A stretch of DNA of 33,572 nt. Origin: Dehalococcoidia bacterium (GTDB lineage: Bacteria > Chloroflexota > Dehalococcoidia > SHYM01). The notes under the pieces were generated by a model. It did not search any database and was not told the origin of the DNA. It saw only the letters and a program-made list of their open reading frames with translations. The stretch is taken from NCBI GenBank assembly GCA_009692805.1, contig SHYM01000006.1, positions 1 to 33,572 on the forward strand. Reading direction: 5' to 3'. Numbering within the stretch: the stretch's first letter is position 1; each line of letters opens with the position of its first letter. The translations under genes and the position numbers were made by a program. Of this stretch, positions 3,166 to 31,335 are shown piece by piece.

Positions 3166-4485
3166 TTAGCTGACGGCAACTGGACCCTGGGTGGCAGGGA
3201 TGCCCCGAGCATAGACCAGCCTGAGCTGGGTAGCCAGCAAGCTACCTAACACCAGGGCTACGAAGAGCAGACCGGTGCCACTGAGCAGGATAGGCGCCGT
3301 CATCCAGGGCAGGTCCATCAGGACGCCGTTGATGCCGTTGAAGCCGGCCATGGTGCCCTGGACATGCCAGGTGTTGGCGCTCATCACCCGGCCCCGGAGA
3401 GCGTCGGGGGCAGCGGCCTGGACTATCGTATGGCTAATAGTCATGAAGGCAGCCGTGGTCGCTCCTATGGCCGCGGCCGCCATGACGGCCTGGGGGATGT
3501 TGGAGGCAAAGCCCAGGGCGATGGGACTCAGCCCGCTCAGCAAGCCCAGCCAGAGGAAGAGGCGCCCCCTCATCTTCTGGCCCTCGATCCTGGCCAGCGC
3601 CAGGTTCCCCACGATAGACCCGGCCCCCACCCCTATCATCAGATAGGTGGGGCCTTCAAAAAGCTCTTTCCCCGTCTCCATCCCTAGCTGGGCCCGCGAG
3701 AAGAAGGGGAATACGGACTCAAAGGCCATCGTCAGGGCGCAGTGCAGCACCGTCAACACCATGACGGATAGAAGCAAGGGGTGAGTGTAGATGTAGCGTA
3801 CCCCAGCCACCAGGTTCAGCATCACCCCTTGCGCAGGCTCTATGACGCCCCGGGAGACGGTGCCTATGCGCAGCACCTGGCTCCAACCCACGGCGTAGAG
3901 GACGGCGCCCACGATGAAGGCCGGCTCCGGGTCTGCGAGAGTGACCACTGGCAAGACCAGCAACGGCCCCACCATGCGCGAGCCCTGCTGCATCAGTTGG
4001 TTCAGGGCCACGGCGTTGAGCAGGCGACCGGGCGGCACCAGGTTGGGCAGGAGCGCCTGGCCCATTGGCATCTCGGCCGCCCGAATGGAGCCGTTCAGCA
4101 CCGCCAGTCCCAGGAGCTGCCACTCGGTGATGCCCCCGCTCAGGGCGAGGAGAGCAAGGAGCAGGTTGTGGGCCGTATTGAGGCCGAAGGTGAGGGCCAG
4201 CAGCTTCCGGCGGTCGAAACGGTCAGCCAGAAAGCCCGCCACCGGCGTCACCACCAAGCCGGGCAGCAGGGCCGCCATGGTGACCAGCCCGACCCAGGCG
4301 TTGGAATCGGTCAGCCGGTATACCAGGGCGCCCCGCAACACCAGCAACGCCCAGGCGGCCGACTGGCCGCAGAGGGTGGCTACCCACAGCCGCCGATAAT
4401 CGGGATACGCCAAGGATGAAAAGAGCCCCGGCCTGTCCGAGGCCGTCCCTCTGTTCAGGAGAGAACCCTCGCTTTCTGGCCCCAA
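3166..4485 (-). CDS. MFS transporter
   Basis: About 12 hydrophobic segments; MFS motif GFLADRFDRRKLL. Confidence 0.85.
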   Translation of the reverse strand: MGPESEGSLLNRGTASDRPGLFSSLAYPDYRRLWVATLCGQSAAWALLVLRGALVYRLTDSNAWVGLVTMAALLPGLVVTPVAGFLADRFDRRKLLALTFGLNTAHNLLLALLALSGGITEWQLLGLAVLNGSIRAAEMPMGQALLPNLVPPGRLLNAVALNQLMQQGSRMVGPLLVLPVVTLADPEPAFIVGAVLYAVGWSQVLRIGTVSRGVIEPAQGVMLNLVAGVRYIYTHPLLLSVMVLTVLHCALTMAFESVFPFFSRAQLGMETGKELFEGPTYLMIGVGAGSIVGNLALARIEGQKMRGRLFLWLGLLSGLSPIALGFASNIPQAVMAAAAIGATTAAFMTISHTIVQAAAPDALRGRVMSANTWHVQGTMAGFNGINGVLMDLPWMTAPILLSGTGLLFVALVLGSLLATQLRLVYARGIPATQGPVAVS

Positions 4486-4510
4486 GCAGCCGCCTGCAGC
4501 ACCGTCATCC

Positions 4511-4714
4511 GGCCTTGTACAGAAATGACATCCTGCCGGTATAGAGGGAGTGCAGAGGGGGTCCTACCCTCTGCCGGGCGGCCAAAGGGGGTGCCCCCCT
4601 TTCTCTCCCTTTTATACTACCCCCTTCCTGGCCAGGAAGGGGGTCCGCCGCAGGCGGGTCGAGGGCGTCTTCAGGGGAGAGCTGATCGAAGAAAACGAGA
4701 CTTTGTGCAAGGCC
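4511..4714 (+). mobile_element. MITE-like element copy 1 (204 bp, complete)
   Basis: TIRs GGCCTTGTACA (4511-4521) and TGTGCAAGGCC (4704-4714); 9-bp flanks CCGTCATCC (4502-4510) / CCATCATCC (4715-4723), 8/9 identical; 24-nt palindrome at 4620-4643. Confidence 0.85.
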
Positions 4715-4855
4715 CCATCATCCCTTGTTTGTCAGACTCCACCCTTTAGCTGACGACCCCTGCCGCTCAACGCGCGGCGCGGCATCCACATCTACCTGGG
4801 AGGGCGGCGCCGCCTGGAGCTATCCCTCTGTCCGATAGGGTATACTCGTCCTGAG

Positions 4856-5113
4856 ATGACGCCCAGGGCGCGGTCAACGCCACCCTCTAAAGACTACCGC
4901 TGCCGCCGCTGTGGCCACCTATTTCCGGTCTTCTGCGACGCCGCCGGCAACCCCCTCTGCCCGGTATGCGGCAAGCACAAGCCCCTCTGCTGCCTGCGCT
5001 GCGAAGCCCCCGATGTGGAGGAGGCCGTCCCCGACGAGCGCTACCTCCTGGGCCAGCCCGGGGCCGCGGGGCTGACCGAGGAGGACTATTACGAGGCGGT
5101 TTTGAAGCCTTGA
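4856..5113 (+). CDS. Small zinc-ribbon protein, function unknown
   Basis: CRRCGH...CPVCGKHKPLCCLRC cysteine pattern; TATACT -10 just upstream. Confidence 0.6.
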   Translation: MTPRARSTPPSKDYRCRRCGHLFPVFCDAAGNPLCPVCGKHKPLCCLRCEAPDVEEAVPDERYLLGQPGAAGLTEEDYYEAVLKP

Positions 5114-6657: not shown

Positions 6658-6705
6658 CCCCTATAAAGAAGCCCTAGGCAGATGAAAAACGGGAGGTGCA
6701 GAGGG

Positions 6706-6727
6706 GGCGTCCGCCTAGGCGGACGCC
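6706..6727. repeat. 22-nt perfect palindrome GGCGTCCGCCTAGGCGGACGCC inside a partial repeat fragment (GTGCAGAGGGGG...)
   Basis: Read directly; shares the CCGCC-n-GGCGG core with 4646-4660 and 5620-5634. Confidence 0.7.
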
Positions 6728-6749
6728 AGGGGCCCTGGAGTTGTCCCCC

Positions 6750-6905
6750 AGCTTTGCACTAAGGGCATCCTGCCGGCAGAGGGAGTGCAGAGTCCCGATG
6801 CTCGGGATCTGCCGGGGGTCGAAGTCCCGACGCTCGGGATTCTCTCCCTTTCATGGTTCCCCCTTCCTGGCTAGGAAGGGGGCCAGGGGGATGGTTCGTG
6901 GAGGG
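6750..6905 (+). mobile_element. MITE-like element copy 2 (right end eroded) with two nested short palindromes
   Basis: AGCTTTGCACTAAGGGCATCCTGCCGGCAGAGGGAGTGCAGAG...; core CCCCCTTCCTGGCTAGGAAGGGGG (6859-6882); contains TCCCGATGCTCGGGA and TCCCGACGCTCGGGA. Confidence 0.75.
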
Positions 6906-6919
6906 TTCTTAACACCCTG

Positions 6920-7552
6920 CTAGCCCTCCAGCACCCCGTCGGGATCGGTGTCGGCCAGGGCCGCCAGGTACTCCGGCAGGATGCGCTGGTTGTACATCTC
7001 TTCCAACTTGTCCAGCAGGCGGACCGGGTCGGCGTCGGAGACAATAGTGGCGCCCGTCTTCTTGGGGACCAAGGCTACGATCTCCCGTATATGCCCCGTG
7101 ACGCCCCCGCTCCCTTCCAGCACGCCGATGACCTTGCCCTCGTCGTAGGCGATGGCGAACTCCCCCAGGGTGCCCGTGCGGCCGCCGGCGAAGACCACCA
7201 CGTCGCTGGAGCGGATGTTCTCGATCTCTCGACCCATTAGCCCCGAGCCGGTGTAGATCATGACGTCGTAGCCCCGGGTGGGGGAGGTGTACTTGACCAC
7301 GTGCTCCTTGAAGTTCAGGGCGGGGGAGACACCGACCACGAATCCCCCCTCGCTCTTGGCTCCCTTGACAGCCTCGTGGGGGATCCCCGGGCAGGCCCCC
7401 GTGATAAGCACGTGGCCGCGGCGGGCGACCTCCTGGCCCAGGCGGTACACCCGCGCCAGCACCTCGGGGTCCAGGCGGCCTCCTGCCGAGCCCATCACAC
7501 CCACCGTCAGCCGGGGGTAACGCAGTTCGGTGCCGGGGGCGAGGGACGGCAT
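6920..7552 (-). CDS. LOG-like Rossmann protein (TIGR00725/lysine decarboxylase-like family)
   Basis: VGVMGSAGG, ITGACPGIPHEAVKGA, GGRTGTLGEFAIAYDEGK. Confidence 0.8.
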   Translation of the reverse strand: MPSLAPGTELRYPRLTVGVMGSAGGRLDPEVLARVYRLGQEVARRGHVLITGACPGIPHEAVKGAKSEGGFVVGVSPALNFKEHVVKYTSPTRGYDVMIYTGSGLMGREIENIRSSDVVVFAGGRTGTLGEFAIAYDEGKVIGVLEGSGGVTGHIREIVALVPKKTGATIVSDADPVRLLDKLEEMYNQRILPEYLAALADTDPDGVLEG

Positions 7553-9191: not shown

Positions 9192-9289
9192 AGACACCCC
9201 CTTTTTCACTAGCCAGTTCCGCGGCAGAATCCTACCACATACTGGAGCCCCATAACGGGGCCCCAAAGGGCCCCACCATGGGGGCGACT

Positions 9290-9490
9290 AGCCTTGCACA
9301 TGAAGAGCATCCTGCCGGCAATTGAGGGAGTGCAGAGGGATCCTCCCTCTGCCGGGGGTCGAAGGGGGTGCCCCCCTCTGACCCCCTTCAAACTACCCCC
9401 TTCCTGGGTAGAAAGGGGGCCAGGGGGATGGTCGCGGGCATACTCATGGAGGGAGCGTGATCGAGAAAATGCGGTTTTTTATGCAAAGCC
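9290..9490 (+). mobile_element. MITE-like element copy 3 (201 bp, complete)
   Basis: Ends AGCCTTGCACA / TATGCAAAGCC; perfect 9-bp direct repeats GGGGCGACT at 9281-9289 and 9491-9499; core palindrome variant at 9396-9419. Confidence 0.88.
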
Positions 9491-9678
9491 GGGGCGACTC
9501 TTCAGGCCCTACACCCCTGTGGCGCGTGCTAGAATGGAGTCCGCCAGAAGCGCAGGCCCGGGCAGAATATCAGCAGGCGGCCAGCTTCCCGCTTGGGCTA
9601 GGCCCAGGAGGGCCTCTGGCACGAACCAAGCCACCGGCAAGTCGCAAGGGCGAATACTGCATTGGGAGGACGTACTGC

Positions 9679-11309: not shown

Positions 11310-13109
11310 ATGCCTGAGAGCCTGCTCCCAGAGTTGGGCGGCGAGCCCGCTGCTCCGCCCGGCCTCTCCCCCTTGGGAGAGGCCCATGCCCTCTACCGCA
11401 AATACCGGCCTCAGGCCCTGGTCGAGGTGGTGGGCCAGGAGCCCATCATCCGCACCCTTTTGAACGCCCTCGCCAGCGGGCGGGTTGCCCACGCCTACCT
11501 GTTCGCCGGCCCTCGGGGGACCGGCAAGACCAGCACCGGCCGTATCCTGGCGAAGGCGCTGAACTGCCTCGCCAACGGTGGCCAGGGCGAGCCCTGCAAC
11601 GCCTGCGAGAGCTGCCGCGCCATCGCCGAGGGGCGGGCCCTGGACCTGGTGGAGATGGACGCCGCCAGCAACCGCGGCATCGACGAGATCCGGAGGTTGC
11701 GCGACCGCGTCAACTTCGCTCCCACTCAAGCCCGCTTCAAAGTCTATATCGTGGATGAGGTCCACATGCTTACCCCGGAGGCCTTCAATGCCCTGCTGAA
11801 GACGCTGGAGGAGCCGCCCGGTCACGTGGTCTTCATCCTGGCGACTACGGAGGTGCACAAGGTGCCCGCCACCATCCTGTCCCGCTGTCAGCGCTTCGAT
11901 TTCAGACGCATCGCCGCCGGGGCGGTGGTGGCCCGTCTCCAGCACATCGCGGCCCAGGAGAACATCGCCGTCGAAGAGGCGGGGCTACACCTCATCGCCA
12001 GGGCCGCTACCGGCAGCCTCCGCGATGCCACCAACCTGCTGCAACAGGCAGCCACTTTCTACGGCTGGCAGATTGGCGCCGGCCAGGTGGAGGAGCTGCT
12101 GGGGCTGGTACGCGACGAGCGGGTGCTCCGCCTGGCCCAAGCGGCCTTGGCCGCGCGGCTGGCGGAGGGCCTCACCATCATCCAGGGCGTAGCCGAGGAC
12201 GGGCTGGACCTCAGGCTCTTCCAGCGCCAGCTGCTAGAGCAGTTGCGGCTGCTGCTGCTGCTGAAGTCGGGCGCCGGCGCGGCCGTGGAGCTGTCGGAAG
12301 GGGAGCGCAGCGCCCTGGAAGAGCTGGCGCGGGGAGCCAGCCTCCACGATATCCTGGTGGCCATAAGGTATTTTAGCCAGGCCGACCTGCGCCAAGACGC
12401 TTACTCCTCCCTGCCCATGGAGCTCGCCCTGGCGGAGATCGCCGCCGCAAAGGAGGTCAGGGAGTCCCGCCCCGCAGGCCCGGCGGCTCGCCCCGCGGCC
12501 CCGGCACACCAGTCAGATTCTCCGCGGAGGACGCAGCCGGAGGAGGGCCGCCGGGAGCCCCGCCCCGCGGTGCCCCAGGCGAGTCCCCGCCCGCTCGCCG
12601 CCGCTGCGCCCACTCCTCCCACTTCGTCCCCTCCTCCCGCTTCGCCTCGTGAAGCACCGAGCGAGCCGACCCCCGCCAGCCAGTCTAGCCCAGCGACTCC
12701 TCGGGAAGCCCCGCCAGCCCCTGGTACGCCCGCACCCACGGGGCTGGCGGCCATCAGCGGGCGCTGGCGGGAGGTGCTGGAGACGGCCAGAGGCCTGAAG
12801 CCTAACCTGGACGCCTTGCTGAGGGGCTCCTGCGAGCCCGTCGGCCTCGGCGACGGGGTGCTGACATTGGGCTTCTTTCCCAACCGCCAGTTCCACCGCG
12901 ACCTGCTAGAAAAGCCAGAGAATCTCAGGGCCCTGGAGCAGGCGGTCTCCCGGGTTACCGGGCTTCAGCTGCGCATAAAGTGCGCCAAGGAGGAGCTTCA
13001 CCGCGGAGCGGCCCGGCGCGCCCGCACCCACCTCATCGACGCCGCCACTCAAGAGCTGGGCGCCGTCGTGATGGAGGAACCCGAGGGGCCTCCGGGTGAG
13101 CGCGACTAA
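11310..13109 (+). CDS. dnaX: DNA polymerase III subunit gamma/tau
   Basis: YRKYRPQALVEVVGQEPI, GPRGTGKTSTGRILAKALNC, Zn-binding cysteines, Pro-rich tau-like linker. Confidence 0.95.
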   Translation: MPESLLPELGGEPAAPPGLSPLGEAHALYRKYRPQALVEVVGQEPIIRTLLNALASGRVAHAYLFAGPRGTGKTSTGRILAKALNCLANGGQGEPCNACESCRAIAEGRALDLVEMDAASNRGIDEIRRLRDRVNFAPTQARFKVYIVDEVHMLTPEAFNALLKTLEEPPGHVVFILATTEVHKVPATILSRCQRFDFRRIAAGAVVARLQHIAAQENIAVEEAGLHLIARAATGSLRDATNLLQQAATFYGWQIGAGQVEELLGLVRDERVLRLAQAALAARLAEGLTIIQGVAEDGLDLRLFQRQLLEQLRLLLLLKSGAGAAVELSEGERSALEELARGASLHDILVAIRYFSQADLRQDAYSSLPMELALAEIAAAKEVRESRPAGPAARPAAPAHQSDSPRRTQPEEGRREPRPAVPQASPRPLAAAAPTPPTSSPPPASPREAPSEPTPASQSSPATPREAPPAPGTPAPTGLAAISGRWREVLETARGLKPNLDALLRGSCEPVGLGDGVLTLGFFPNRQFHRDLLEKPENLRALEQAVSRVTGLQLRIKCAKEELHRGAARRARTHLIDAATQELGAVVMEEPEGPPGERD

Positions 13110-13110
13110 G

Positions 13111-13273
13111 CGACTTTATACGAAGCCGCATTTTCTCCGATCAGGCTCTCTCTATGAGTATGCCCGCGACCATCCCCCCGGCCCCCTTCCTGGCCAGGAA
13201 GGGGGTAGTTTGAAAAGGAGAGAATCCCGAGGGTCGCTCCTTCTGCCGGCAGGATGCCCTTTTAGTGCAGAGC
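13111..13273 (-). mobile_element. MITE-like element copy 4 (163 bp, internally deleted, reverse orientation)
   Basis: Flanked by GCGACTAAG at 13102-13110 and 13274-13282 (shared match extends to 13 bp, GAGCGCGACTAAG, 13098-13110/13270-13282); core palindrome 13182-13205. Confidence 0.85.
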
Positions 13274-13395
13274 GCGACTAAGGCACAATCTGAAGCCGGC
13301 TTCGATGCCGGTCGGGCCGCGCTCTAGCCGTCTCGCCTAGTCCACAACGGGATGACCAACCCTGAGGCAAGGCTGGCGCCCGCGCCAGTGGTTCG

Positions 13396-14916: not shown

Positions 14917-15113
14917 CAGCTTGCACAAGGAGTCAGTCAGCATGGCGGGAGTGCAGAGGGCAGGCAGTCCTCTGCCGGGGGTCTAAGGGGGTGTTCCCCC
15001 TTTCCCTCCTTTTATACCATCCCCTTCCTGGCCAGGAAGGGGGCCGGGGGGGTGGTGATGGACATACTCATAGAGAGAGCCCGCTGCAGCGAAGAATGGG
15101 CGTGAGAAGCACG
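14917..15113 (+). mobile_element. MITE-like element copy 5 in the pheS leader (right end approximate)
   Basis: CAGCTTGCACA left end, GGGAGTGCAGAGGGC...CCTCTGCCGGGGGTC, core palindrome 15021-15043, CATACTCATAGAGAGAGC. Confidence 0.75.
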
Positions 15114-25233: not shown

Positions 25234-26181
25234 CTACCTTCCCGTAGTTCCATAAAAGCCGACGCCGTTGATGTAAGGCGGATCCGCCGTGATGTGATAG
25301 TGATAGACGCCCTCCGGGTAGTCCGTGGTCTTGTGCCAGTGGCCGTGGAATTCGTCTAGGTCGGCGCTGCGCAGCGTCTTGCCGCCCTCTTCGGAACCGT
25401 ATACGGGGAAGCCATCCAGCAGGAATCCGACCAGCGCATCGCGGCCGTACCTTGATGTTAGGCTCGTCGGCTCGACATGGTAATGATACATTCCCGTCAT
25501 CTGCGGATGCCCGTTGTAGTGATCGAAGGAGTCTATTTCCTGAGTGAGCAGGCGATTTGGCCCGGCGTACTGGTTAAAAAGCGGGACCCCGTTGATCGCA
25601 ACGCCAATGGGACCCAAAGGTGTTGGAACTAGGTGGTCGGATTTCTGAGGGTGCAGGGGGAGCCGCAGGACGAGCGATTGCGCTGCAATCTGATTGGGAT
25701 TCTGCCGAAAGTACACGTTGCCGCCGGTGTATGGTTCGTAGCGGCTGTCGCTCCTGGGGAAATACGGGCTCGGATGGTCCGGGACCCCTGTCGCCCTGAT
25801 GATCAGGTAATCGCCATCGACCGTGATGGAAAGTAGTGGGGGGAACTTCTGAAAAGGCGCGGGTATCTCGCCTAGCCGAGGAACCGCAGAGGACGTCGGG
25901 GGAGGGACCGGACTAGGAGCAGGGTTCGACGTGGGCGTCGGTGTGGCCGTGGGCGTCGGTGTGGCCGTGGGCGTCGGTGTGGGCGTCGGTGTGGGCGTCG
26001 GTGTGGCCGTGGGTATAGCTAGGGGCAGAGGTGCGAAGGCAGTGGTTAGAGCCGCGTCCGTCGAGGTTGCTGTCGGGACCTCGGCCGGCGCCGGCGCGGC
26101 CTCCTGCGCGCAACTGGCTGACACCAGCAAGAGCACGCCACTAAGAGCGGCGGGCATACGCCGCCGCCAGTTTCTGCCCAT
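25234..26181 (-). CDS. YHYH-domain protein, probably secreted, with Thr-Pro-rich linker
   Basis: Two YHYH motifs (GMYHYHVEP, GVYHYHITADPPYINGVGFYG), N-terminal signal-like segment ending near Cys. Confidence 0.8.
   Translation of the reverse strand: MGRNWRRRMPAALSGVLLLVSASCAQEAAPAPAEVPTATSTDAALTTAFAPLPLAIPTATPTPTPTPTPTPTATPTPTATPTPTSNPAPSPVPPPTSSAVPRLGEIPAPFQKFPPLLSITVDGDYLIIRATGVPDHPSPYFPRSDSRYEPYTGGNVYFRQNPNQIAAQSLVLRLPLHPQKSDHLVPTPLGPIGVAINGVPLFNQYAGPNRLLTQEIDSFDHYNGHPQMTGMYHYHVEPTSLTSRYGRDALVGFLLDGFPVYGSEEGGKTLRSADLDEFHGHWHKTTDYPEGVYHYHITADPPYINGVGFYGTTGR
25931..26012. repeat. Hexamer-based tandem repeat encoding (PT)n/(AT) linker
   Basis: Iterated GTGGGC GTCGGT GTGGCC units. Confidence 0.85.
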
Positions 26182-26304
26182 GTGATCGATTATAGAGGGC
26201 TGCGTAGCGAAATAGTGATGCGACGGCACCGCTTGCGAGGCAAGTGCTCACCTTCCGGAGCGCTACAGTGCAGCGTATACTAAGGCCGCTTTCCAAGGAG
26301 GGCT

Positions 26305-31210: not shown

Positions 31211-31335
31211 CTCCGCGACCATCCCCCTGGCCCCCTTCCTGGCCAGGAAGGGGGTAGTTTGAAGGTGTCAGAAGGGGGACACCCCCTTCGACCCCCGGTA
31301 GAGGGAGACCCCTCTGCGCTCCCCCCAGCCTGGGT
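31211..31335 (-). mobile_element. MITE-like element copy 6 (terminally truncated, reverse orientation)
   Basis: CCATCCCCCTGGCCCCCTTCCTGGCCAGGAAGGGGGTAGTTTGAAGG...; perfect core palindrome 31231-31254. Confidence 0.75.

Follow-up and report, generated by a model that had tools for sequence, protein, structure and literature searches.

Closest Described Elements

Bacterial MITEs such as QMITE2 of Coxiella consist of a core of 113–145 bp with a stable fold, bounded by TIRs and direct repeats of 7–9 bp, and are mobilised in trans; MITEs are typically AT-rich (review PMC10969869). Insertion sequences of the IS903 group, about 1,050 bp in length (table in PMC3281130), generate 9-bp target duplications (same table; PMC9769513), and those of the IS5 group mostly generate duplications of 4 bp (PMC3281130, table). 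In the open-licence literature, we found no paper on the Dehalococcoidia MITEs described below, nor on chimeric bacterial MITEs of such a kind.

The window analysed here comprises 33,572 nt (SHYM01000006.1), contig 72 of a metagenome-assembled genome (MAG) of a Dehalococcoidia bacterium, which is 1.35 Mb in size and 71% complete and is called the host genome hereafter. At positions 4511–4714, the window includes a 204-bp element that resembles bacterial MITEs like QMITE2 in its TIRs, direct repeats and stable fold. It differs from these in that it is GC-rich and, which is unusual, in that its core, a cassette of three hairpins, is common to two MITE families that differ in their ends and in TSD length, both of which occur in the host genome. 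We have termed these families type A, to which the element at 4511–4714 belongs, and type B. That the element is something of an ordinary kind, a MITE, with a candidate transposase group is well supported. In our assessment, it is very probably a type A MITE for which an IS5-family, IS903-like transposase would act in trans, with a 9-bp TSD and with the shared cassette as its interior.

Structure and Gene Context of the Element

The element and its parts are listed here, with what each assignment is drawn from.

4511–4714, plus strand: complete 204-bp MITE, type A (TIR-bounded homology of the copies)
4502–4510, no strand: left 9-bp target-site duplication (TSD), CCGTCATCC (sequence; family-wide 9-bp TSD signal)
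4511–4521, plus strand: left TIR, GGCCTTGTACA; family consensus, GGCTTTGCACNAAAAG
about 4547–4576, plus strand: hairpin H1, GTGCAGAGGGGG..CCCTCTGCC (fold; covariation in other genomes)
about 4583–4604, plus strand: hairpin H2, AAAGGGGGTGCCCCCCTTT (fold; covariation in other genomes)
4620–4643, plus strand: hairpin H3, perfect 24-nt palindrome, CCCCCTTCCTGGCCAGGAAGGGGG (sequence; exact match in Chloroflexi/Dehalococcoidia MAGs)
4644–4659, plus strand: CCGCCGCAGGCGG hairpin, which in this copy replaces the usual CCAGGGGGATGGTCG tail (alignment A1)
4704–4714, minus strand: right TIR, TGTGCAAGGCC (sequence)
4715–4723, no strand: right 9-bp target-site duplication, CCATCATCC (sequence)

Upon re-reading of the sequence, the TIRs (10 of 11 positions matching), the flanks (8 of 9) and the 24-nt palindrome stand with the coordinates and letters reported in the initial annotation. 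Hairpins H1, H2 and H3 are all present in the interior, and the 204 bp indeed carry no transposase ORF. The strand shown folds better than each of 200 dinucleotide shuffles (z −4.3 as RNA, −3.5 as DNA). At the gathering threshold, no Rfam family matches anywhere in the window.

Gene context was deduced with a simple, home-made gene caller based on codon usage. The copy at 4511–4714 is located between divergent genes. All 53 copies placed in this way are intergenic; they occupy 21 convergent, 26 tandem and 6 divergent gaps, to be compared with 5 convergent, 23 tandem and 4 divergent gene pairs in the window.

Related Copies in the Window and in the Host Genome

Related copies had been said to recur across the window, and they were found at the following positions.

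9290–9490, plus strand: second complete type A element, with a TSD, GGGGCGACT, identical at 9 of 9 positions (9281–9289 and 9491–9499)
13111–13273, minus strand: third type A element, internally deleted, with a TSD, GCGACTAAG, identical at 9 of 9 positions (13102–13110 and 13274–13282)
6674–6923, plus strand: nested hybrid bounded by type B ends (CTAG...CTAG); inside it are a single complete cassette and, at 6750, the left arm of a type A element
about 14917–15080, plus strand: degenerate copy with a complete cassette
about 31216–31321, minus strand: truncated copy, cassette only

Elsewhere in the window (25912–26031), a short coding tandem repeat with a period of 12–18 bp gives rise to a Thr-Pro-rich stretch in the predicted protein encoded at 25234–26229 on the minus strand.

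A BLAST search of the host genome with a 222-bp query returned 70 matches from 40 scored candidates. No fewer than 40 copies can be aligned, many over their full TIR-to-TIR length, and the alignments of copies that reach both ends begin at query positions 8–11 and stop at 212–213, the TIR boundaries, so that the limits of homology coincide with the TIRs in many copies, just where the element had been delimited from the window alone. The TIR motif RGCYTTGCACNAAAAG, with at most two mismatches, has 146 matches in the host genome versus 4 for a reversed-pattern control; together with the 40 or more aligned copies, this shows that the element is not a product of chance. From the host genome, 44 places were extracted and aligned. 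The consensus of the ends is GGCTTTGCAC[N]AAAAG, and the right arm splits the copies into at least two subfamilies, GAGCCAGATCGAAGAAAACGAGACTTT (the one closest to the 4511 copy) and GAGCCTGATCGGAGAAAATGCGGCTTT. The median nearest-neighbour identity between copies is 87% and the highest is 96%, implying that most of the spread of copies is old. An apparent inversion of the core in some copies was rejected, as these are the same element seen on the opposite strand.

In four host-genome loci (L201, L203, L205 and L206), small modules (TCCCGAnnnTCGGGA, CCTTCGGCAGGCTCAGGGCAGGCTC and CCCGCCTGCGGCGGG) replace or interrupt H1, H2 or H3. Adjoining an element copy, a stretch at L064:1258–1538 matches the T-box leader (RF00230) with 69 bits, below the gathering score of 93.

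Target-Site Duplication and Empty Sites

In 16 out of 40 two-ended copies, the two flanks agree at no fewer than 8 of the 9 positions, with 0.42 expected and a maximum of 5 in 1,000 shuffles; this count allows a one-base shift, in copies and control alike. For the 40 copies, the TSD signal has a z of 12.0 at 9 bp, as against 3.7 at 8 bp and 5.1 at 10 bp, and in a first set of 20 copies with two good ends, the excess of flank identity over the shuffled control lay chiefly around 9 bp (z 8.3). Perfect TSDs border L063, L061, L200 and L216 as well as the window elements flanked at 9281/9491 and 13102/13274, and also occur in other genomes (L192, L193, L183 and L185). For the type-A-like elements in the JADFRC, JACQUM and JACQUK MAGs, clear 9-bp TSDs were not found, and we therefore name their ends A-like only.

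A related empty site comes from L194, in a genome of the same class (G018), where a 142-bp type A sibling element sits in the H3 of a cassette. When the element and one 9-bp copy are taken out, the remaining sequence aligns with uninterrupted cassettes at 74–81% identity, apart from a small number of short gaps. The earlier claim that the 9-bp flanks are duplicated thus holds across the family (the 16 of 40 copies) and, by the related empty site, for this sibling; an orthologous empty site for the 4511 copy itself was not obtained. Taken together, TIRs, a fixed 9-bp TSD, many copies and the lack of a transposase gene bear out the reading as a MITE, a non-autonomous mobile element.

L194 shares with L180 and L183, likewise in other genomes, type A ends and TSDs of 8/9 or 9/9, and a different interior (GTCATTCTGAA.. 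inverted repeat); type A ends therefore serve several MITE interiors.

A Candidate Transposase for Type A

The TIR motif was found in 15 of 295 genomes of the class. A full-length insertion sequence with matching ends, the search for which had been suggested on the basis of the window, exists outside the host genome, in genome G015. This locus, L188, has a TIR pair (GGCCTTGCACAATAAG / GGCCTTGCACAAAAAG) spanning 2,140 bp, with a perfect 9-bp TSD, TACCTTTAA, on both sides. Its 401-aa ORF matches SWIM (2e-5) and DDE_Tnp_1 (PF01609; 1e-19). The best NCBIfam match of the protein is transpos_IS5_2 (1e-33), with 117 bits versus an equivalog cut-off of 140, for which reason we call it IS903-like and do not file it in the IS903 group; its annotated relatives in tblastn searches are IS903B. 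The initial annotation had supposed a transposase of an IS4-, IS1- or IS256-like group; the ends, TSD and protein matches of L188 replace this with an IS5/IS903-like enzyme.

The ends of IS903-group elements start with GGCTTTG. L188 is like the members of that group (IS903B; ISPam1, ISPko1 and ISPpa8 of Paracoccus) in its 9-bp TSD, in having ends of this kind and in the similarity of its DDE_Tnp_1 transposase, but it is 2,140 bp instead of some 1,050 bp long, has an extra ORF, and shows about 25% identity. L188 further carries a SWIM zinc finger. The window element differs from all of these in having no transposase. Within L188 (1070–3209), extra internal end motifs (ACTTTTTGTGCAA) occur near both ends, along with the second ORF.

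Of 148 relatives, 15 have homologues of the L188 transposase, and for several of these, GGCYTTGC-type ends lie near the gene's end. Second ends with a TSD were not found for these other IS903-like transposase loci, and L188 alone is consequently counted as a complete autonomous element. In the host genome, neither a PF01609 transposase nor a relative of the L188-type protein (P0001) was found; with only 71% of that genome present, the missing transposase is weak evidence, and incompleteness may account for it. G015, which holds L188, yielded no cassette match at E ≤ 1e-5.

The Three-Hairpin Cassette, Type B and the Hybrids

The cassette comprises, in this order, H1 (GAGTGCAGAGGGG..CCCCTCTGCC), H2 (GGGGGTGTCCCCC), a spacer, H3 (CCCCCTTCCTGGCCAGGAAGGGGG) and a tail (CAGGGGGATGGTCG). 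It is also present in other genomes, mostly without type A ends. When species genomes were scanned for the exact H3 palindrome, at least 111 stretches came up, and, among the matches listed, all records are titled Chloroflexi, Dehalococcoidia or Dehalococcoidales. Most of the exact-H3 copies listed belong to elements of about 150 bp with CAGGCTGNTGAAAAA ends and YTAR flanks; these are the type B MITEs, with a TSD of 4 bp (CTAG/YTAR). A type B element also exists in the host genome (L260), and L130 provides a related empty site for this family. A full-length partner of type B, L178, was found in a genome of the same family as the host genome (G001): it is 1,354 bp long with CTAG on both sides, and its transposase falls in the IS5_4 equivalog (transpos_IS5_4, 262.6 bits versus a cut-off of 140). 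In both respects, L178 is like the IS5 group, and it serves type B, the second cassette-bearing family, not the element at 4511–4714.

Besides the nested element at 6674–6923, the host genome holds a hybrid, L056, that combines a type A left arm with a type B-like right arm. Both appear to stem from a type A element that inserted into a type B element, with later recombination of one cassette with the other.

A covariance model (E ≤ 1e-5) detected the cassette in 48 of the 119 class genomes and in 25 of the 201 genomes drawn from the phylum, with per-genome counts listed up to at least 33 (class) and at least 20 (phylum); weak matches in the phylum may be looser hairpin repeats. One locus from another class of the phylum (L269, in G312) matches the cassette strongly and has a longer H3 (CCCCCTTCTCCC..GGGAGAAGGGGG). 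Similarly built hairpins in tandem (GGGTGCAGGGGG..CCCCCTGCCGGGTCCAGGG..CCCTGG) occur in viral contigs (L244–L248), where a scan with the H1 pattern revealed only such hairpins, without H3 or the tail.

Amongst 28 sequences from other genomes, the helices H1–H3 pair in 96% of cells. There are 26 double-change cells, a number that no shuffle out of 500 reached. This evidence of compensatory change comes from H1 and H2, and H3 is invariant, in part because most copies were fetched by an exact H3 match. Pairs were counted in the single-type alignment A3. The mixed alignment A1, tried in RNAalifold, was dropped for this count; H2 is mis-registered between the types in it.

The Rfam model RF02937 (Clostridiales-2) matches H1 in 12 of 16 host-genome loci (E from 9e-5 to 0.19) and in other genomes too. 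The likeness comprises the sequence and hairpin of H1 (GGGRGUGCAG..CUGCCG); type B copies also share a 3′ end of the GUCGAA type. The best score, however, is 35.1 bits, below the gathering score of 58.6; the model has no match as such to H2, H3 or the tail, and RF02937 is named for Clostridiales.

Alternative Explanations

With regard to mobility, short GC-rich palindromes in many intergenic copies are what one would see for REP/BIME-type repeats moved by a RAYT (Y1) transposase. REP/RAYT units are not known to have TIRs or TSDs, whereas the type A element has both, of 9 bp in the latter case, with a related empty site and a candidate DDE transposase as partner; the TIR and TSD data contradict a REP/BIME origin, which we find hardly credible. 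Another family of transposases with 8–9-bp duplications (IS1, IS256, IS4/IS10/IS50 or IS6) would be permitted by the length of the TSD taken by itself, but L188, in which matching ends and TSD go together, encodes an IS5/IS903-like enzyme, making such an alternative very unlikely.

Two further explanations concern the cassette. It could quite possibly be a passive by-product, its palindromes kept perfect by hairpin-templated repair and recombination between its many copies, and its sharing due to descent or exchange without any function. The existence of nested and hybrid elements, the close similarity of H3 across copies and the free swapping of hairpin modules all agree with this, although the invariance of H3 owes something to exact-match fetching, and the fixed order and spacing of H1, H2, H3 and tail in most copies throughout the class exceed what a by-product would need. 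Alternatively, the cassette might itself be a functional RNA or a regulatory element, such as a Clostridiales-2-related sRNA or a transcription attenuator, for which the transposon ends are only the vehicle; this competes with the cassette part of our explanation and not with the MITE part. The compensatory changes in H1 and H2, the RF02937 matches to H1 (up to 35 bits) and the fact that both MITE families, and 48 of the 119 genomes from the class, have kept the cassette speak for such an RNA. Against it, the RF02937 scores all remain below 58.6, with much of the middle of the model skipped in the alignments. Furthermore, scanning of 4400–4900 gave no promoter-like site, and no terminator-like site was found inside the element, whereby the idea of a bidirectional terminator was dropped. 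H1 and H2 are, moreover, sometimes replaced by unrelated hairpins, which fits better with "any hairpin will do" than with a specific RNA. On balance, we consider a functional RNA rather unlikely.

Proposed Origin and Significance

For a type A MITE mobilised in trans, the IS903-like transposase would recognise the GGCYTTGCACNAAAAG ends, move the element and duplicate 9 bp of the target. The copies in the host genome were presumably moved by the L188-type transposase or by a close relative that is now lost or was not binned. Type B, with its CAGGCTGNTGAAAAA ends and 4-bp YTAR TSD, carries the same cassette, with an IS5_4-type transposase as its partner. Arms appear to have been exchanged between the families through nested insertion and subsequent recombination between cassettes, a route with which the two nested or hybrid host-genome elements are consistent. 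Our best guess for the cassette is that it makes insertions tolerable beside genes, as a structured spacer that often lies at gene 3′ ends; the gene context suggests this, as the copies are intergenic, with many in gaps between convergent genes. More tentatively, and with some doubt, the cassette may be viewed as a cargo module that travels on at least two transposase systems (IS903-like with a 9-bp TSD and IS5-like with a YTAR TSD) across the Dehalococcoidia and parts of the Chloroflexota, is transferred by nested insertion and recombination, and benefits the carrier or the host by way of its hairpins, for instance by insulating the ends of genes or by acting as an RNA related to Clostridiales-2.

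These results document a high-copy MITE system and its candidate transposase in a little-studied class of bacteria. The occurrence of one structured interior in two families makes it testable whether the interiors of bacterial MITEs are under selection or merely carried along. They also suggest that at least one candidate RNA in Rfam, Clostridiales-2, may relate to repeats of this kind and merits re-examination.
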